A DNA stretch of 64,000 nt from an uncultured Bacteroidia bacterium (GTDB taxonomy: Bacteria; Bacteroidota; Bacteroidia; Bacteroidales; F082): positions 1-64,000 of the forward strand of contig CACXQV010000005.1 of assembly GCA_902769875.1 (NCBI GenBank), written 5' to 3'. Under the pieces are notes generated by a model. It was given only the letters and a program-made list of their open reading frames with translations, did no database searches and was not told the origin of the DNA. This document shows, in pieces, positions 9,085 to 60,548 of this stretch. How positions within the stretch are numbered: position 1 is the first letter of the stretch; every line of letters starts with the position of its first letter. Made by a program: the position numbers and the translations under genes.

Positions 9085-9380
9085 GCATTCGGCCCGAATG
9101 CGACAAGGAAAAAGCAGGTCTGCATTCGGCTCGAATGCGACTATAAAATAAAGGTTCGCATTCGGCTCGAATGCAATAGATTGGATGCAATACGCACGCA
9201 TTCGGGCCGAATGCTTGCCGGTTTCGGGCTTTCTGCTTGCCGGTTTCGGGCCGAATGCTTGCCGGTTTCGGGCCGCATTCGATATGCATTCGGGCTTTCT
9301 GCTTGCCGGTTTCGGGCTTTCTGCTTGCCGCATTCGGGCCGAATGCAGACCGGTTTCGAGCCGAATGTTTGCCAATTCTT
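9085..9380. repeat. 22-bp-phased palindromic repeat array
   Basis: Three palindromes of the type GCATTCGGCYCGAATGC begin at 9085, 9122 and 9158. From 9198 the array becomes strictly periodic: the core [AT]TTCGGG starts at 9200, 9222, 9244, 9266, 9288, 9310, 9332 and, as TTTCGAG, 9354, each exactly 22 bases apart. The second half of the unit alternates between CCGAATGC and CTTTCTGC, and the linker is mostly TTGCCGG. The reading frames across it are translations of the repeat, not genes. It fills the gap between the fimbrillin terminator and the AAA ATPase stop codon. Confidence 0.9.
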
Positions 9381-9491
9381 TCCTATAACGAATAACAAAA
9401 AACAATAGCAATCAGGTAATTTGACAAATGAAAAGATTAGTGGCAATTAAAGTTTCTCACTTTAGTGATTGGTTGAGGTGTCGCGTTTGTT

Positions 9492-10934
9492 TCAAGTGAA
9501 CAAACTGCCGAGGGTTATTGTTTGCTGAATCACTCCGCTGTGGGCGTTTGGCTTAAGCCCAACGGTTGTAACAAGCGTCAGATGAACGACTTGCTTGAAC
9601 GATAAGTGCTCCTGAAGTGTTGCGATTCGTGCCCTGAGTTTCATTTCGTCTTCGGCTGTCGGCTCATATTCTTTCGATATGAATTTCATTTCGCACAGGT
9701 TGACCACTCTGTCGTCTCGGACGATGAGCATATCGATTTGCGCTCCGTTGTGGTCGTCGTCGCTTCTCACTATCCAAGCCGATTCGGTTGACGCCACGTT
9801 TTCGACCCCCAATGCCCTTTTGATTTGCCTGATATGCTGGAAGCAAACCTGCTCGAAAGAGAGCCCTCTCCAAGCGTTGATTGTCGGCATGTTTTGGTTG
9901 CGCTGCCAAAAAGTGGGATCTGTGATGTGCTGGTCTTCGATGAAGTGTAAGTAAAACTTGCAAAAGCAGTCGGTGAGTTTGTATCTGATTTCCTTTTTGC
10001 TTCGTCCGAAAGGGTGATAATGGGCAATGAAGTCGCTGGCGGCAAGCGTTTCGAGCATCTTGGTGAAGCTGCCTCCTGGATTGATTCCGAGGCTTTTGGT
10101 CAGTTCTTCGCGAGTGTAGCCCGTGTGCCTTCTTGCAAGCAGTTTCACGGTCGATATGTAGTCGTCCGGATTGATAAACAATGAGCCGAACAGCCTCTGA
10201 AATTCCATTTTGAGCTTTGCGTTTTTTGCAAACAGCAACAAATCAATGTTTTGTGCGAGGCTTTTCCCTTTTTGGAAATAATTGAGATAGTAGGGAATGC
10301 CCCCGAAAATCATATAAGCCTCGACTATGTCGTAGTCGGACAGGGCGATGCCTTTCATTTCAAAAAAGGCCTTGCTTTCGGCTATGGTGAAAGGCGACAG
10401 TTTGATTTGCCATGTCAGGCGGTCATATAGCCCCCCTTTGTTGTTGATGAGGTTGTCGAGCATCCACGAGGTTGCACTACCGCAAACGATGAGCATCACT
10501 CGGTCGCGCCAAGCTCCCCATGTGTTCCAGAAATGCTCGAAAGCGACCATGAACTTGGAGCGAGGTGTGTCCATCCATGGCAATTCATCGATGAAAATCA
10601 CCTGCCGTCGCCCGTCGTTGATTTGATCAAGAAGTTGTCCTAACATAAGGAAGGCTTCGCTCCATGTTTTGGGACAATGGCTTTCGTCCAGGCCTTGTTG
10701 CGTCAGGCTCGAGTAGAAAGCGTCAAGTTGGTCTTTCATACCTATTTTGCGTTCCTTGTCGAAAGGCGATACTCCGCTGTGATAAAAAGCCATCTTGTTT
10801 TGGAAAAGCTCTTTTACGAGAAAGGTTTTGCCTACCCGCCTGCGGCCATATATGGCGACAAATTCGGGTTTCCCGCTGTCATAGAGGTTGTTAAGCTCCT
10901 CTATTTCCTGTTTTCTTCCGATGATTTTGCTCAT
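9492..10934 (-). CDS. AAA ATPase with DUF234/PD-(D/E)XK-like C-terminal domain, copy 1
   Basis: 480 residues from MSKIIGRKQEIEEL. Walker A GRRRVGKT is at 30-37 and Walker B VIFIDELPW at 112-120; GSATSWM is sensor-like. A winged-helix segment follows (GYTREELTKSLGI) and the C-terminal domain holds QIDMLIV and NLCEMKF, the acidic-x-Lys pattern of the PD-(D/E)XK nuclease fold seen in the archaeal-type ATPase/DUF234 family. The frame is open to 11051, but that part is only array sequence and lies upstream of the -7 box at 10956-10963. The family occurs widely in Bacteroidota accessory DNA; its function is unsettled. It is paralogous to 21080-22522. Confidence 0.85.
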   Translation of the reverse strand: MSKIIGRKQEIEELNNLYDSGKPEFVAIYGRRRVGKTFLVKELFQNKMAFYHSGVSPFDKERKIGMKDQLDAFYSSLTQQGLDESHCPKTWSEAFLMLGQLLDQINDGRRQVIFIDELPWMDTPRSKFMVAFEHFWNTWGAWRDRVMLIVCGSATSWMLDNLINNKGGLYDRLTWQIKLSPFTIAESKAFFEMKGIALSDYDIVEAYMIFGGIPYYLNYFQKGKSLAQNIDLLLFAKNAKLKMEFQRLFGSLFINPDDYISTVKLLARRHTGYTREELTKSLGINPGGSFTKMLETLAASDFIAHYHPFGRSKKEIRYKLTDCFCKFYLHFIEDQHITDPTFWQRNQNMPTINAWRGLSFEQVCFQHIRQIKRALGVENVASTESAWIVRSDDDHNGAQIDMLIVRDDRVVNLCEMKFISKEYEPTAEDEMKLRARIATLQEHLSFKQVVHLTLVTTVGLKPNAHSGVIQQTITLGSLFT

Positions 10935-10946
10935 TTTTTGTCCTTT

Positions 10947-11097
10947 ATTCAGCCGCAAAGATACAAAATTATTGTTATCCGGCTGAATATAACCCCCTAT
11001 ATTTAGCCAGAACTCGAAAAAAAATGTTGTTCCGGCTGAATATAACCCCATTTATTCAGCCGGAACAAGGTGTTTTGGTGCTGTTCCGGCTGAATAT
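10947..11097. repeat. Private dyad array of AAA ATPase copy 1 (53/54-bp period)
   Basis: CCGGCTGAATAT starts at 10979, 11032 and 11086; its inverse ATTCAGCCG, ATTTAGCCAG, ATTCAGCCGG starts at 10947, 11001 and 11054. Distances are 53, 54 and 54, 53. One pair forms a perfect 15-bp stem, TGTTCCGGCTGAATA with its complement around 10 bases. The array lies between the ATPase start and the end of the pseudouridine synthase gene. Confidence 0.9.
10956..10963 (-). promoter_or_regulatory. -7 box of AAA ATPase copy 1
   Basis: CAAAGATA, read TATCTTTG on the minus strand, 22 bases before the ATG. The first copy of the private dyad repeat (ATTCAGCCG, 10947-10955) abuts it on the transcript side and would span the start of transcription, as an operator would. 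Confidence 0.6.
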
Positions 11098-20743: not shown

Positions 20744-20784
20744 CGGTTTTTATGGAATAGGAAGGCAAATTTTCTCGTTTCATC

Positions 20785-20899
20785 GGAAAACGCAGTTTTT
20801 CCACCCCTAAATTTATAGGAAAACGCAGTTTTTAGAGGTTGATTTTTATAGGAAAATGCAGTTTTTTAAGGCCGAATTTTATAGGAAAACGCAGTTTTT
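20785..20899. repeat. 33-bp-phased repeat array upstream of AAA ATPase copy 2
   Basis: GGAAAACGCAGTTTTT occurs at 20785, 20818, 20851 (with one change, ATGC) and 20884, each exactly 33 bases apart. In the last three copies TTTATA precedes the core, leaving about 11 variable bases between units. The core is itself a dyad, AAAAC and GTTTT around GCA. It resembles an iteron array; it lacks the spacer length expected for CRISPR. Confidence 0.9.
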
Positions 20900-20921: not shown

Positions 20922-21039
20922 TGTCCACGAAAATGGTTTTAGCTTATTTTATGGACACTTTTTATATTCAAAATATGTCCACGAAAGTATAAAATTGTCA
21001 TTTCGTGGACATTTTTTTGTTTATTTTGTGTCCACGAAA
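20922..21039. repeat. Private dyad array upstream of AAA ATPase copy 2 (53/54-bp period)
   Basis: TGTCCACGAAA starts at 20922, 20976 and 21029 (steps 54 and 53). Inverse copies TTTTATGGACA and TTTCGTGGACA start at 20947 and 21001 (step 54). The middle pair is a perfect 12-bp inverted repeat, ATGTCCACGAAA. The last copy lies 12 bases upstream of the -7 box, in the -30 region of the promoter. Confidence 0.92.
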
Positions 21040-21079: not shown

Positions 21080-22522
21080 ATGCAAGATATTATCGGCAGA
21101 AAATCAGAAAGAAAGGAACTTGACAGGCTTTACGAATCGGGAAGGCCTGAGTTTGTCGCGGTTTATGGCCGTCGGCGCGTGGGGAAGACATTCCTCGTCC
21201 GCGAGCATTTCTTGGGGCGTTTCGCGTTCTATCATACAGCCATTTCGCCCGCCGACTTTCAGGGCAAGAAAAAGGACTTGAAAAGGGAACAATTGCGAGC
21301 GTTTTGCTCAAGTATACAGCAATTTGGCGGCGATTGGGACGAGATGCCTAATGACTGGTTTGGGGCTTTCGCCTGCCTCCGCGAGATGTTGGAACAACGA
21401 GACGAAACTGGGCGCAAAGTGGTATTTATCGACGAATTGCCTTGGATGGACTCGGGGCGGTTGGGGTTCGTGTCGGCGCTTGAGCATTTTTGGAACAGTT
21501 GGGGGGCGGGCCGCACCGACCTGATGCTCATCGTTTGCGGCTCGGCGGCCTCGTGGATGAACGACAAAATCATCAACAACACTGGTGGACTTTATGGCCG
21601 ACTCACATACGAAATGCACCTTTCGCCGTTCAATCTGGCTGAATGTGAGCAGTTTTATGAGTCGCGGGGCATCAGTATGGACCGATATGACCAACTGCAA
21701 AGCTATATGGTGTTTGGCGGCATTCCGTATTACCTCAATTATCTCAAGCCCGAAAACAGTCTTGCGGAAAACATTGATAATCTGTTCTTTGCTAAAAACG
21801 CTCGATTGCAGAAAGAGTTTGAGCGGCTTTACGATTCCTTGTACTCCAATTCCGAGAAATATATTGAAATTGTGCGGCTGTTGGCCACCAAACGCGGCGG
21901 TTTCACGCGAAAGGAAATCGCAGAACGGACTTCGATTGCCTATAACGGACGGATTTCCAAGATGTTGCAAACTTTGGAGAAAAGCGATTTCGTTACTTCT
22001 TACACTTACTATGGCGGCAGTGCGCGGAATGTCTATTACAAATTGGTGGACAGGCTTTCGCTGTTTCATTTGGCTTTCCTTGACGGGAAGAAATTGCCTC
22101 GCCAAAGCTTTTGGACAAAAAACATCCGCACGCCCGAACTGAACACTTGGCGCGGCTTGGCTTTCGAGGAAGTGTGCTTGCTCCACGAGGCGCAAATCAA
22201 GAAGGCGTTGGGCTTTGGTGCTGTTGACGCGGTGGCAGCTCCTTGGCGTAGCAAGGCGGGCACGGCGCAGGTGGACTTGCTGTTCGACCGCAGCGACCGT
22301 GTGGTCAACCTTTGTGAGATGAAGTTCGTTTCCGATGAGTTTTCCATCGACAAGGACTATGATGCCGAACTTCGCCGCAAAGTGGAACGTTTTATCGAAG
22401 ACACTTCCTGCAAGAAATCAGTTCATTTGTCATTGGTGACCACATACGGCCTTGTCAGAGGCAAATATTCCAGTCGTTTTCAGTCGGTTATGACGATGGA
22501 CGACCTTTTCAAAGAGGATTAA
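21080..22522 (+). CDS. AAA ATPase with DUF234/PD-(D/E)XK-like C-terminal domain, copy 2
   Basis: 480 residues, the same length as copy 1 and colinear with it: MQDIIGRKSERKELDRLYES, Walker A GRRRVGKT at 30-37, Walker B VVFIDELPW from 114, GSAASWM, YMVFGGIPYYLNY, a winged-helix part with GGFTRKEIAERT, and a C-terminal AQVDLLF plus NLCEMKF, the nuclease-fold pattern. The two proteins differ at perhaps half of their positions, so the duplication is old. What differs completely is the flanking repeat: here TGTCCACGAAA on both sides. A regulatory, defence or mobile role is possible; none is shown by the sequence. Confidence 0.87.
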   Translation: MQDIIGRKSERKELDRLYESGRPEFVAVYGRRRVGKTFLVREHFLGRFAFYHTAISPADFQGKKKDLKREQLRAFCSSIQQFGGDWDEMPNDWFGAFACLREMLEQRDETGRKVVFIDELPWMDSGRLGFVSALEHFWNSWGAGRTDLMLIVCGSAASWMNDKIINNTGGLYGRLTYEMHLSPFNLAECEQFYESRGISMDRYDQLQSYMVFGGIPYYLNYLKPENSLAENIDNLFFAKNARLQKEFERLYDSLYSNSEKYIEIVRLLATKRGGFTRKEIAERTSIAYNGRISKMLQTLEKSDFVTSYTYYGGSARNVYYKLVDRLSLFHLAFLDGKKLPRQSFWTKNIRTPELNTWRGLAFEEVCLLHEAQIKKALGFGAVDAVAAPWRSKAGTAQVDLLFDRSDRVVNLCEMKFVSDEFSIDKDYDAELRRKVERFIEDTSCKKSVHLSLVTTYGLVRGKYSSRFQSVMTMDDLFKED

Positions 22523-22524
22523 TG

Positions 22525-22624
22525 TGTCCACAAAATGACTTTTTATCATTTTCGTGGACACTTTTTGTATTAGAAAAGTGTCCACAAAAGCCTAAAAATT
22601 ATGTTTCGTGGACACATTTCTGAG
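22525..22624. repeat. Private dyad array downstream of AAA ATPase copy 2
   Basis: TGTCCACAAAA starts at 22525 and 22579, 54 bases apart; TTTCGTGGACA starts at 22550 and 22614. Two inverted pairs result, with stems GTGTCCAC/GTGGACAC. The first copy begins two bases after the TAA stop codon. These are the same motif and period as upstream of the gene. Confidence 0.9.
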
Positions 22625-23627: not shown

Positions 23628-24044
23628 TTGCATCGTTTTTTGGCTTCTTTGTCTGAAGTGTTGTCCCAAGATGTGTCCCAAGATACCGATTTGGATTTCA
23701 GTAAATTACAATTTTTGTCCCGAAATGTGTCCCAAGATGTGTCCCAAGATATGTCCCAAGATGTGTCCCAAGATGACGAAAACATTTTGGCGGACTGGCT
23801 CAACACAAATTCCACGAAGCAGGTATGGTCGATTCTCAAACTTGCAGCCGAACCATCCGAAATGCGACAACTGCAAGAAACAGTGGGAGAAACCAACAAG
23901 CGCCGTTTTGCCTTGAAATACATCAAACCCCTTATCTCCATAGGCTGGCTTGAAATGACCATTCCTGACAAGCCTACGAGCAAACTTCAGAGATACCGCC
24001 TAACCACCCAAGGGAAACACATTCTTTCCATAATAGGGAAATAG
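23628..24044 (+). pseudogene. Remnant of an AlbA_2-type ATP-binding regulator (C-terminal part)
   Basis: 138 residues in an open frame that lack any ATP-binding or AlbA domain. The N-terminal half is a tandem repeat of VSQD (12-base unit GTGTCCCAAGAT). The C-terminal half has a winged-helix look and ends TIPDKPTSKLQRYRLTTQGK, a tail familiar from AlbA_2/RecG-like ATP-binding proteins. It therefore looks like the linker and last domain of such a gene whose front is missing. It could still be a small functional protein. It lies between two copies of the secA 3' end. Confidence 0.5.
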
Positions 24045-28532: not shown

Positions 28533-28659
28533 TTGATTTCCGGCACAATCAACTCCCCCTCATCCCGCACAAAATCCCGTTGATAAAACATGCAATAATA
28601 AACAAGGAAGTCTAATAGGAGTTAAATTGCTGTTTATCAACTTATTCCTGCAAGAAAAG

Positions 28660-28737
28660 GGGACTTTTTCCGAAAATTACAGCCTAAAAAAGGGAATTAT
28701 TCCGTGATTTTAAGGGGTGAAAAAGGGACTTTTTCCG
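28660..28737. repeat. 32/33-bp-phased repeat array
   Basis: GGGACTTTTTCCG at 28660 and 28725 with the related GGGAATTATTCCG at 28692 between them, steps 32 and 33. The copies sit in A-rich surroundings between the convergent T5orf172 and thioredoxin-fold genes. Confidence 0.7.
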
Positions 28738-32730: not shown

Positions 32731-32790
32731 AAAAGTCCAAGAAAAAGTCCAAGTTGGACATTTCTTGGACTTTTTTTGGATTTTTTGCTT
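32731..32790. repeat. Repeat block upstream of AlbA_2 gene (copy of 34205-34262)
   Basis: AAAAAGTCCAAG is repeated after 12 bases and inverted as CTTGGACTTTTT, making a dyad. About 50 bases are identical to the block downstream of the gene. A partial third copy, AAAAGTCCAAAAATG, covers the start codon at 32840. Confidence 0.9.
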
Positions 32791-32809
32791 GGAACATACT
32801 GATAATTAT

Positions 32810-32817
32810 TACTTTTG
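32810..32817 (+). promoter_or_regulatory. -7 box of the AlbA_2 gene
   Basis: TACTTTTG, 22 bases before the ATG at 32840. The repeat block ends about 20 bases upstream, where a regulator could act. Confidence 0.55.
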
Positions 32818-32839
32818 CAGTGATTTAAAAAGTCCAAAA

Positions 32840-34201
32840 ATGTTAGAAAAAAACGATATTTTCCATTGTTTGGTTCAAGGTGAAGGGCCTCATATCGAGT
32901 TCAAGCAGTCCGTGCCGGTGAAGGTGCGTGAGTTGAGCGAAGAAGCCTGTGGATTTGCCAATGCCCAAGGCGGTTTTGTGCTTATCGGCATCAGCGATTC
33001 GAATAAGGTTGTGGGTGCCACCATCGAAAACAGCCGTCGTTCTGCCATTCAGGGAAGCCTCGGCGAAATTTCGCCAAAAATCCAATATTCCTTGTATCCA
33101 ATAGAAGTGGACGATAAAACGGTTTGGGTTATCGAAGTGCCTGAAGGCCAGTTCAAACCGTATGTTTTTGGCGGTTCCATTTTTATGCGCGAGGGTGCGA
33201 GTTGCCAAAAGTTGACCCAAGTTGATGAGATGCGTGATTTCTTCCAACGAAGCCAGCGCATCCATTTCGATGCCATTCCCGAGCCCGCCATCAACCTTAT
33301 GGACGAATTGGACGAGGAAGCGTTTCTCGACTTCCGACGTTCAGCAAGCCTGAGTCCAGACACGCCAATTCCTCAAATCCTTGACAATCTGCAACTTTTT
33401 GACGAAAATCACGCAGTCAGGCGAGGCGGTGTTATGTTCTTCGCCAAGCATCCCGAAGCGCATTATTTTCAGGCTGTTGTGCGTTGCGCCTTGTTCAAGG
33501 GGAACGAAAAAGTCTATATTTTGGACGACAAGACCTTCCACGGACCTCTGCTTCGGCAATACGAGCAGGCTCTGGACTGGCTGCAAAGCAAGTTGCAGGT
33601 TTCGTATAGGATTGAGACCGCCGGCCCTCGGGAGGAAATTTGGGAGATTCCCTTGAACGTGCTGAAAGAGGCCTTGCTGAACGCGATTTGCCATCGCGAC
33701 TATTACGAGCAAGGCGCAACGGTGGTCGTGGAGATGTATGACGACCGCATCGAAATCAGCAATCCAGGCGGGCTGTTGCCGATTGTGGCGAAGAACTTTG
33801 GACGAAAGAGCCTGTCGAGAAATCCGTTGGTTTTCAATCTTTTCACGCGGATGAACCTCGTGGAAAAGATTGGTTCAGGCATTCCAAGGATGCGAAAGTC
33901 TATGCTTGACGCGGGCTTGCCTGAGCCTGTTTTCGAAACCGAGGGCTTTTTCACCGTGACGCTTTTCCGCCCATCCGCGCAAACACAAACCGACAAGATT
34001 GTGGAAGAAACCACAGCAATGGACAAATCCGAGGCCATCATAGCCATCATCAAGGAGAATCCGTCCATAAGTTCGGACGAAATCATTCGCCTGACCGGAC
34101 TGAAACGAAGCACTTTCTACAACTACCTTAACAAGTTGAAAGAGAGCAAGAAAGTGAAGAAAGTGAAGGCCAACGGCAAGTGGCATTGGGTGGTCAAATA
34201 G
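32840..34201 (+). CDS. AlbA_2 (Schlafen-like) ATP-binding regulator
   Basis: 453 residues from MLEKNDIFHCLVQGEGPHIEFKQ. The N-terminal AlbA_2 domain has HIEFKQS and ACGFANAQGGFVLIGI; the middle holds the GHKL-like ATP-binding part with EALLNAICHRDYYEQGATVVVEMYDDRIEISNPGG and KIGSGIPRMRKSM; the C-terminus is a winged helix (SSDEIIRLTGLKRSTFYNYL). This is the RecG-like or putative transcriptional regulator family, common as accessory genes. The longer frame from 32723 only reads through the repeat block. The same block of about 50 bp lies on both sides of the gene. Confidence 0.85.
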   Translation: MLEKNDIFHCLVQGEGPHIEFKQSVPVKVRELSEEACGFANAQGGFVLIGISDSNKVVGATIENSRRSAIQGSLGEISPKIQYSLYPIEVDDKTVWVIEVPEGQFKPYVFGGSIFMREGASCQKLTQVDEMRDFFQRSQRIHFDAIPEPAINLMDELDEEAFLDFRRSASLSPDTPIPQILDNLQLFDENHAVRRGGVMFFAKHPEAHYFQAVVRCALFKGNEKVYILDDKTFHGPLLRQYEQALDWLQSKLQVSYRIETAGPREEIWEIPLNVLKEALLNAICHRDYYEQGATVVVEMYDDRIEISNPGGLLPIVAKNFGRKSLSRNPLVFNLFTRMNLVEKIGSGIPRMRKSMLDAGLPEPVFETEGFFTVTLFRPSAQTQTDKIVEETTAMDKSEAIIAIIKENPSISSDEIIRLTGLKRSTFYNYLNKLKESKKVKKVKANGKWHWVVK

Positions 34202-34204
34202 TGC

Positions 34205-34262
34205 AAAAAGTCCAAGAAAAAGTCCAAGTTGGACATTTCTTGGACTTTTTTTGGACTTTTAG
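34205..34262. repeat. Repeat block downstream of AlbA_2 gene
   Basis: Begins four bases after the TAG stop codon with AAAAAGTCCAAG, repeated and inverted as in 32731-32790, then one more TTTGGACTTTT. It runs into the end of birA on the other strand. Confidence 0.9.
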
Positions 34263-34999
34263 TTGGAAATAATGAATCTAATTTCCTTAATATCAAAACA
34301 ATACGTCTTGTTTTCCGTGTCCAAAAGTTGCAGTCTTCCAAATGAATCAATTCCCGTCATAAGCAGCCGCAAAACCTTCCCTTCGACTTCATAATCCGCC
34401 CAAGTGCGGTAGCGGAAAAGCCGTTTCAAGTAATCTTTCTCAATGGATGTAGGGGAGGACTTCAATTGCTGCACCTTTATTAATATACACTCCGCGATTT
34501 GCTCCAACAAAGGATGCAAATTGTAATCCTTTCCCATAATCATTTTCAGCGAAATCGGGTGCGTTGGCCAGTCTTGGAATTTCATTTGGTTGACATTCAG
34601 CCCAATACCAATGATGGAAACATCCATTATGTTGGCCTTGATGGTGCTGTTGATGAGGATTCCGGCGAGTTTTCTGTTTTCAAAATAGATGTCGTTGGGC
34701 CATTTGATGGACAGCTTCTCGGAAGGTAAAATCGTGTCCAAAACCTCAATGATGCCCAAGGCTACGGTTTCGGAGAGCAGAAACTGCCTTTCGGCAGGCA
34801 GAAAGCTCATATCCAATGCCATAGAGAATGTGAGGTTCTTTCCGGTCTCGCTTTCCCAGCTGTTGCTGCCCATACCTTTGCCTGCGGTTTGCTCATCTGC
34901 ACTGACAACCCAGTTTGTGATGTCGCGTTCCGACTGCTGCCTTTGCAGATAGGCGTTGGTGGAGTCGGTTTTTCCCAAATGATGATAAACGAGTGTCAT
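34259..34999 (-). CDS. birA: Biotin--[acetyl-CoA-carboxylase] ligase
   Basis: Activates biotin as biotinyl-AMP and attaches it to the lysine of biotin carrier domains. The 246-residue protein has STNAYLQRQ near 13-21, the biotin/ATP loop QTAGKGMGSNSWES in place of the GRGRRG of E. coli, KWPNDIYFENRKLAGILIN near 119-137 and IGIGLNVNQ. It lacks the N-terminal helix-turn-helix of E. coli BirA, so it is not a repressor. It lies five bases after the Omp28-type gene, in the same direction. Its stop codon overlaps the repeat block of the AlbA_2 gene. Confidence 0.92.
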   Translation of the reverse strand: MTLVYHHLGKTDSTNAYLQRQQSERDITNWVVSADEQTAGKGMGSNSWESETGKNLTFSMALDMSFLPAERQFLLSETVALGIIEVLDTILPSEKLSIKWPNDIYFENRKLAGILINSTIKANIMDVSIIGIGLNVNQMKFQDWPTHPISLKMIMGKDYNLHPLLEQIAECILIKVQQLKSSPTSIEKDYLKRLFRYRTWADYEVEGKVLRLLMTGIDSFGRLQLLDTENKTYCFDIKEIRFIISN

Positions 35000-60482: not shown

Positions 60483-60548
60483 GCGGCTGCCGTGGTACGA
60501 CAGCCCTACAGCCCAGCCGTTGTAGGGCTGTCGCATCGCGGCAGCCGC
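60483..60548. repeat. Two-storey palindrome upstream of the AAA ATPase
   Basis: GCGGCTGCCG (60483-60492) pairs with CGGCAGCCGC (60539-60548) and, inside, ACAGCCCTACA (60500-60510) pairs with TGTAGGGCTGT (60521-60531); the interior gaps are seven bases on each side and the loop has ten. The remaining gap to 60838 contains further dyads such as GCCCCGCTGGGGC and GTCACTCCGTGAC but no supported gene. Confidence 0.8.

Follow-up and report, generated by a model that had tools for sequence, protein, structure and literature searches.

The window, as the whole stretch of 64,000 nucleotides analysed here is called, carries two paralogous genes of the PDC-S27 family, each accompanied by its own array of words. 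Copy 1 lies on the minus strand (9492..10934) and encodes a protein of 480 residues composed of an ATPase (AAA+/STAND-like), a winged helix, and a PD-(D/E)XK domain. Copy 2 lies on the plus strand (21080..22522) and is 49% identical to copy 1. Both match the Pfam model ATPase_2 (PF01637) above cut-off, with E-values of 2e-20 and 8e-14 for copy 1 and copy 2, respectively. The PADLOC profile PDC-S27 matches copy 1 over its full length (residues 1-479, 1.3e-192) and copy 2 with 3.6e-187. The genes had been labeled DUF234-type in a preliminary description of this DNA; the label needs amending in that Pfam gives ATPase_2 and reports no DUF234 (PF03008) for either copy at E<=0.001. Despite the missing DUF234 match, a C-terminal D...ExK core is conserved, and the relative from a Wolbachia phage carries a DUF234 annotation. 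We take the ATPase_2/DUF234 family to be COG1672.

The Walker residues are invariant in the family. The Q.D...E.K core, which in copy 1 comprises Q399, D401, E415, and K417 (codons 9684..9740, minus strand), has a weighted conservation of 1.00 after rounding at all four residues in 152 members; among 84 aligned members, Q, E, and K are invariant and D is present in at least 90%. The AF2 model of copy 1 has a pLDDT of 95 and a pTM of 0.91. Its secondary structure assigns residues 256-320 (codons 9975..10169, minus strand) to the winged helix and residues 288-299 to the recognition helix. Profile searches against the PDB matched a Walker-type ATPase (6e-6), VchTnsC (4e-4), ORC4 (1e-3), and the winged helices of MarR/MepR (0.009). 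Foldseek matched 2qen (2e-13) and Cdc6/Orc1 on origin DNA (2qby, 1e-8, TM-score 0.36-0.45), other matches being ORC subunits, RuvB, and Avs3; TM-scores are below 0.65 throughout. At E<=0.001, the Pfam matches of the two copies are confined to ATPase_2 and further ATPase models, with no tyrosine transposase among them.

The word array of copy 1 (10946..11096) is located upstream of the gene. Its half-sites, at 10946-10956, 10979-10989, 11000-11010, 11032-11042, 11053-11063, and 11086-11096, alternate in orientation and form dyads with a period of 53/54 bp. In gene orientation, the repeat unit is a dyad of TATTCAGCCGG, a gap of 21-22 nt, and CCGGCTGAATA. The word CCGGCTGAATA occurs exactly at 10979, 11032, and 11086 (spacing 53, 54), and its inverse starts at 10946, 11000, and 11053 (spacing 54, 53), with one mismatch in the first copy of the inverse and two in the second. 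Hence, both pairs of spacings given earlier are borne out and the plus-strand positions are exact, while the inverse sites start one base earlier than had been claimed. The array was also said to touch the promoter, and indeed the last dyad includes a -7 element of Bacteroidetes type, TATCTTTG (10956..10963, minus strand). No copy 1 word was found 3' of the copy 1 stop codon, in agreement with the earlier description. A 22-bp tandem array (GGTTTCGGGCCGAATGCTTGCC) is present 3' of this stop codon at 9176-9388, and differs from the copy 1 word.

Copy 2 has dyads of TGTCCACGAAA both 5' and 3' of the gene. In the upstream array (20922..21039), the words start at 20922, 20976, and 21029 on the plus strand and at 20947 (two mismatches) and 21001 on the minus strand. 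In the downstream array (22525..22614), they start at 22525 and 22579 on the plus strand, each with one mismatch, and at 22550 and 22604 on the minus strand. We searched both arrays against the host genome (G000; 3.5 Mb in 138 contigs, 82.6% complete, 5.7% contamination). The copy 2 array matches solely its two gene flanks (E<=0.01). At E<=1, nine further matches to the copy 1 array were found, five of which are beside other ATPase genes; the remaining four are weak, with E above 0.07. The statement that the two words have nothing in common proved too strong, as both are variants of one half-site motif in a common register, which was taken from a joint half-site alignment with a starting consensus chosen by eye.

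Geometry of the arrays across the family

Copy 1 has 29 matches in G000 (E<=1e-60). An inverted-repeat scan detected a dyad of score 9 or more upstream in 27 of these loci, and the two dyad-less ones (L003 and L024) have just 166 and 106 bp of upstream DNA. The words of the paralogues differ from each other, and many recur directly 3' of the stop codon. Of 40 genus genomes searched for relatives, 28 had matches, and a scan of named genomes contributed 19 loci; a near-full-length filter led to 168 distinct family members. The family is rare in the phylum, being found in 8 of 198 genomes at E<=1e-60 with G000 included, and 5 phage records and 35 plasmid records match at E<=1e-20. Seven of eight loci from other Bacteroidota genomes, all but L240, and five of eight named records elsewhere have an inverted repeat of score >=10 upstream. 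The upstream words on plasmids of Segatella, Emticicia, and Butyrivibrio resemble the half-site motif; in a gut-phage contig and in a Malaciobacter plasmid, the inverted repeat shows no clear resemblance to it. No upstream inverted repeat of score >=10 was detected for the relatives on a haloarchaeal plasmid, a Desulfosarcina plasmid, and the Wolbachia phage, the last of which has a 56-bp direct repeat instead.

Within 160 bp upstream of the gene, an inverted repeat of score >=10 is found for 143 of 165 genes. Dinucleotide shuffles give 9 of 165, and control windows in other parts of these loci give 12 of 330. Downstream inverted repeats are found for 87 of 161 genes versus 2 of 161 shuffles. 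The shuffles and control windows rule out chance repeats. For 86 of 160 genes, a segment of the upstream region is found again downstream of the gene itself (score >=16), compared with 5 of 480 mismatched gene pairings; the other 74 genes have no segment common to both sides. The downstream array is a variable trait across the family.

A joint alignment of the arms gives a half-site of 20 nt with the consensus ATTATATTTGGCCAAAACTA; the alignment used no protein information, began with a consensus picked by eye, and rewarded matching arms with a bonus. The inner gap between half-sites is 11, 12, or 13 bp in 156 of 164 genes. A direct-repeat lag of score >=11 is detected upstream of 111 of 163 genes, and in 11 of 168 control windows, where the lags are scattered. 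Among these 111 genes, the lag is 51-55 bp in 76, 62-64 bp in 12, 74-76 bp in four, and 85-86 bp in five. With one vote per protein cluster at 75% identity, the lag is 51-55 bp in 41 of the 57 clusters for which a repeat is detectable; the 15 cluster lags that fall outside 49-57 bp are phased at 10.5 bp (R=0.73, p=5e-5). The proposal that the period is constant while the word changes is therefore upheld for most clusters, the others lying mostly near multiples of 10.5 bp.

The motif TAnnTTTG, which we take to be the -7 motif of Bacteroidetes type, is present in 139 of 152 genes versus 13 of 168 control windows. In this count, as in the phasing, covariation, contrast, tree, identity-band, and thinning analyses, 12 of 164 genes were excluded because of poor arms (m<6). 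The distance from dyad centre to -7 motif is quantised, being mostly about 5, 37, 48, 58, 87, 102, or 112 bp. Over 75 clusters, the helical phasing of dyad and promoter has R=0.743, a value reached in 0 of 20,000 uniform draws and 0 of 20,000 shuffled pairings. These counts show that the arrays hold a helical-turn geometry to each other and to the predicted promoter. That one helical phase is kept at any distance from the promoter speaks for a DNA-bound protein acting there, and autoregulation through the promoter array is strongly suggested. In 61 of 75 clusters, the best dyad centre precedes the -7 element by at least 36 bp, so that the dyad is probably not transcribed in these.

Covariation of the winged helix and the word

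We then compared protein columns with word positions (w) in 152 genes, whose effective number is 79 at 75% identity, using about 7,500 column-base pairs with background correction. The five strongest pairs are P277xw12 (0.371), K305xw14 (0.365), P277xw13 (0.323), S280xw9 (0.288), and G278xw12 (0.271), and the sixth-ranked pair has 0.198. All five map to the region of the recognition helix and the wing. Numbering in the AF2 model of copy 1 equals the profile numbering plus nine at the winged helix, and hence profile columns 277, 278, 280, and 305 correspond to P286, G287, S289, and K314 of copy 1. In the model, P286 and G287 immediately precede the recognition helix, S289 is in its first turn, and K314 is in the wing. 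Ser at column 277 is accompanied by C at w12 in 26.4 of 27.4 weighted genes, and also by A at w13; Asp at the same column pairs with G at w12 (15.5 of 23.5) and G at w13 (16.0 of 23.5). Lys at 305 pairs with A at w14 (39.7 of 42.7 weighted genes), Arg at 305 with T or C at w14 (16.3 of 20.1), and His at 280 with G at w9 (9 of 9).

Contrasts between pairs of nearest relatives, which are confounded by divergence, failed to single out the winged helix and were replaced with a test on a tree built without the winged helix, in which 7,440 pairs were ranked. P277xw12, K305xw14, and S280xw9 rank 3, 5, and 15, respectively; P277xw13 and G278xw12 rank near 250, and S280xw8 ranks 984. Some columns with one to three changes rank equally high. 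On the tree, Lys is replaced by Arg at column 305 five times together with a change from A to T and six times without a base change, and the reverse change from Arg to Lys accompanies T to A twice.

The signal was also inspected within a narrow band of divergence and after thinning. Among 9,769 gene pairs at 36-48% identity, 30-column windows of the protein were used to predict word similarity, and only windows on the winged helix, starting at columns 250-275, exceeded the permutations (best value 0.20 versus a maximum of 0.114 in 200 permutations). When one gene was kept per 75% or 60% cluster, P277xw12, P277xw13, S280xw9, and G278xw12 reached the top eight in all four runs, and K305xw14 did so in three; at 60%, some columns that lie outside the winged helix also appear there. 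At 50% thinning, which leaves 17-18 genes, the covariation signal is gone. The suggestion that residues of the winged helix covary with the word is thus supported by the top five pairs, which are mostly kept on thinning and are weaker on the tree. Of all parts of the protein, the winged helix tracks the word best in these alignments.

Probable movement of the genes, and arrays of other ATPases

Close copies were compared with respect to their surroundings. Among 57 pairs with at least 90% protein identity, 42 have some flank in common, partly only as short pieces, and 15 have no flank similarity; some of these loci have little flank. Of 110 pairs tested with at least 700 bp of flank, 53 lack any collinear flank hit reaching 150 bp. 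The left edge of homology in these 53 non-syntenic pairs is at a median of -2 bp from the outermost upstream half-site, within 15 bp of it in 26 pairs and within 30 bp in 33. Downstream sites are present in 32 of these pairs; the right edge comes within 15 bp of the outermost one in 14 of the 32, and in the other 18 the homology stops away from the array. For the 21 pairs without downstream sites, the right edge falls in the range of -30 to +19 bp around the stop codon 19 times, and at -121 and +125 in the others. Clean examples are L064/L097 (from -90 to 56 bp after the stop) and L016/L115 (from -159 to 98 bp after the stop). Discrete unit edges, a criterion for a classical transposon, are accordingly present in part of the pairs. 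The comparisons show that copies occupy different places in related genomes and that alignable homology often stops at the array or the stop codon.

Empty sites were found as well. In G018, the upstream flank of L011, one dyad, and the downstream flank of L011 follow one another with the gene missing, and a related copy (82%) is located about 1.5 kb away. In G012, the copy 2 array is kept between pyrH and the downstream flank, again with the gene missing. In G033, the two pieces of copy 2 flank are 99 bp apart without an array, and its copy stands elsewhere nearby. At the copy 1 locus, a larger piece, some 3.4 kb long, is absent from both G012 and G033, with no word left. A tandem pair occurs in G018, the second gene of which is absent from G031 and G021. 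Recombination between flanking arrays would explain the solo arrays at empty sites as well as active excision would. Judged from these comparisons, the ATPase genes appear to move as single-gene cassettes with their own word array. Specificity had been proposed to drift with the protein after duplication; the word does track the protein, but the spread is partly due to movement of whole cassettes and not only to duplication.

Genes of the PDC-S01 type (AAA_14 + DUF4143) have a similar upstream, gene-specific array design in G000; they belong to another ATPase subfamily and have a shorter period of about three or two helical turns. DUF4143 (PF13635) has 45 matches over cut-off in G000, 20 loci of which were examined, some with rough gene starts (the L228 frame is not the ATPase). 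An upstream array is present in 13 of the 20, with a period of 32/33 bp in ten, 22/23 bp in two, and 27 bp in one, compared with 7 of 85 control windows, one of them at 33 bp. The words are gene-specific, and two of the genes, when compared with PADLOC, were both PDC-S01. A PDC-S01-type gene of G000 (L286:1100-3050) has dyad arrays on both sides with a word resembling that of copy 1. The two DUF4143 genes with 22/23-bp arrays (L221 and L231) may be compared with the 22-bp array at 9176-9388. In the window, a solo 33-bp array of four units, GGAAAACGCAGTTTTT (20778..20899), is located beside copy 2. A similar array (83%) in G022 is directly upstream of an AAA_14+DUF4143 (PDC-S01) open reading frame that is absent here; the solo array was therefore probably left behind by a PDC-S01-type gene, unless G022 gained the gene. 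The word GAAAAAGGGACTTTTTCCG, with three copies at 32/33 bp (28654-28737) and no ATPase reading frame seen alongside, is perhaps another such solo array.

Further repeats were noted in the window. The AlbA_2/HATPase_c_4/winged-helix gene at 32840-34201 has near-identical dyads (AAAAGTCCAAGAAAAAGTCCAAG..CTTGGACTTTTTTTGGA) before its start and after its stop (32731-34270). As 20 AlbA_2/HATPase loci of G000, the window's own included, have no common upstream period (0 of 20), a rule of arrays for every ATPase-like family with a winged helix is ruled out. An inverted repeat (GCGGCTGCCGTGG..) at 60483-60548 is upstream of an AAA-ATPase_like/PDDEXK_9 gene, and similar repeats are near ATPase genes in L114 and L117. 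A 12-bp tandem repeat, TGTCCCAAGATG, is at 23704-23779.

Interpretation and relation to known systems

We consider it quite probable, and the best reading of the data, that these genes are mobile and probably self-regulating cassettes of ATPase, winged helix, and nuclease, with private operators that drift. Several tests each support recognition by the winged helix, the helical geometry, and the mobility. The private word array and the gene would make up each cassette, together with a second copy of the array in about half of the cases. Protein molecules would sit next to one another on the inverted half-sites, along a single face of the DNA, the promoter array would let the gene control its own expression, and the conserved nuclease may act on the words during movement. 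The drift of each word would be coupled to that of the recognition helix and wing in the protein of its own gene, so that some thirty paralogues could be accommodated in one cell with little cross-talk, a situation like that of iteron plasmids from different incompatibility groups.

Two rival accounts concern the nature of the genes. The arrays may be mere operators that repress an anti-phage ATPase-nuclease, spread by ordinary horizontal transfer. The PDC-S27 match in PADLOC, the helical phasing to the promoter, and the flanks that 42 of 57 pairs of at least 90% identity have in common agree with such autoregulated defence genes, as does the listing of PDC-S27 as a prevalent putative candidate in the accessible part of PMC12988326. 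An operator alone leaves unexplained the same array after the stop codon (86 of 160 genes), the edges of homology at array ends of moved copies, and the solo arrays in two empty sites; some thirty paralogues per genome are also many, though defence genes can expand. We regard this account as a serious possibility, somewhat short of an even chance. Alternatively, the genes may be strictly selfish elements, in which PD-(D/E)XK cuts the arrays, the ATPase assembles the ends, and the arrays serve as both ends and operators. This is consistent with the conserved nuclease and ATPase residues, the profile match of the ATPase to VchTnsC (4e-4), the unit edges at arrays in part of the pairs, and the G018 empty site with one dyad. 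Against it, about half of the genes are without a matching downstream array, many close copies have longer flanks in common, and recombination between flanking direct repeats yields an identical empty site. Few empty sites are informative on target-site duplication, and the array itself is the repeated sequence. It is a possible account about which we remain doubtful.

Two further explanations concern the words themselves. The dyad arms of 9-25 nt are able to form hairpins, and REPINs, as presented in the accessible part of PMC3116915, are inverted REP doublets tied to specific RAYT genes; the dyads could thus act as RNA, in the form of terminators, attenuators, or REP/REPIN-like hairpins. The spacing follows the DNA helix, the words track winged-helix residues, the dyad centre in 61 of 75 clusters lies at least 36 bp upstream of -7 and is probably untranscribed, and the two arrays searched are not scattered genome-wide in many copies. 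On the helical phasing, the position upstream of the promoter, and the covariation, an action as RNA was ruled out and must be deemed extremely improbable. The covariation could also be a phylogenetic artefact, in that related proteins have both residues and words in common: the 152 genes share ancestry, with an effective number of 79 at 75%, naive contrasts are confounded, and the tree test is only partly supportive. Yet all other columns carry the same phylogeny and miss the top five, parallel changes recur on a tree built without the winged helix, and the narrow identity band with permutation still singles out the winged-helix windows. Such an artefact is very unlikely.

The reading as mobile, self-regulating cassettes has parallels in known systems. 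In iteron plasmids, the initiator is a winged-helix protein that reads helically spaced repeats beside its own gene and regulates itself, and drift gives rise to different, compatible (incompatibility) groups. The PDC-S27 arrays resemble iterons in being repeats in helical phase beside the gene; they differ in that the protein has a nuclease domain, the cassettes are chromosomal, and no replication role is known. Archaeal Cdc6/Orc1 has origin boxes, and likewise combines an ATPase with a winged helix and binds origin DNA; in Foldseek, it matches copy 1 at 1e-8 (2qby). Its TM-score with copy 1 is only 0.36-0.45, and the PD-(D/E)XK domain, the dozens of paralogues, and the mobility set the present family apart. 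RAYT/REPIN systems, as far as the accessible part of PMC3116915 goes, tie a specific gene family to specific palindromic DNA and are mobile, but use a tyrosine transposase, whereas the copies here are ATPases. Unlike REPINs, the two arrays searched stay mostly at ATPase genes and do not have many dispersed copies. The defence-island repressor RptR binds three direct repeats in a promoter; in the accessible part of PMC12255303, it is a separate small regulator with a conserved, non-drifting word, and is not itself the effector.

By profile, the two copies are of the same family as PDC-S27 of PADLOC, and they have the fusion of ATPase to PD-(D/E)XK given for it in the accessible part of PMC12988326, where it is among prevalent putative defence candidates, with validation pending for most of these. 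The accessible parts of PMC12988326 and PMC13356809 count both PDC-S27 and PDC-S01 as common putative defence systems, and their descriptions of the PDC-S27 candidate make no mention of private words, arrays, or mobility. In a literature search covering titles and abstract openings, with preprints and most subscription papers outside its scope, no description of private words beside these genes was found. We tentatively raise the possibility that PDC-S27 and PDC-S01 together represent an unrecognised kind of mobile element, in which the helically quantised array of an autonomous gene would serve as both ends and operators, the word would co-evolve with the recognition helix so that dozens of paralogues coexist orthogonally, and solo arrays would be scars.

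These findings turn an abundant uncharacterised family into a system with a readable protein-DNA code, in which the word beside a gene should predict the binding of its own protein from sequence alone. The family offers many natural, probably orthogonal pairs of regulator and operator with a common geometry, and a clear case of specificity drift within a large set of paralogues. If the genes are mobile and mostly act on themselves, the counts of PDC-S01 and PDC-S27 in the accessible parts of the surveys (PMC12988326, PMC13356809) need another explanation. If they are indeed mobile elements, their high counts in such surveys would owe as much to self-propagation as to immunity.
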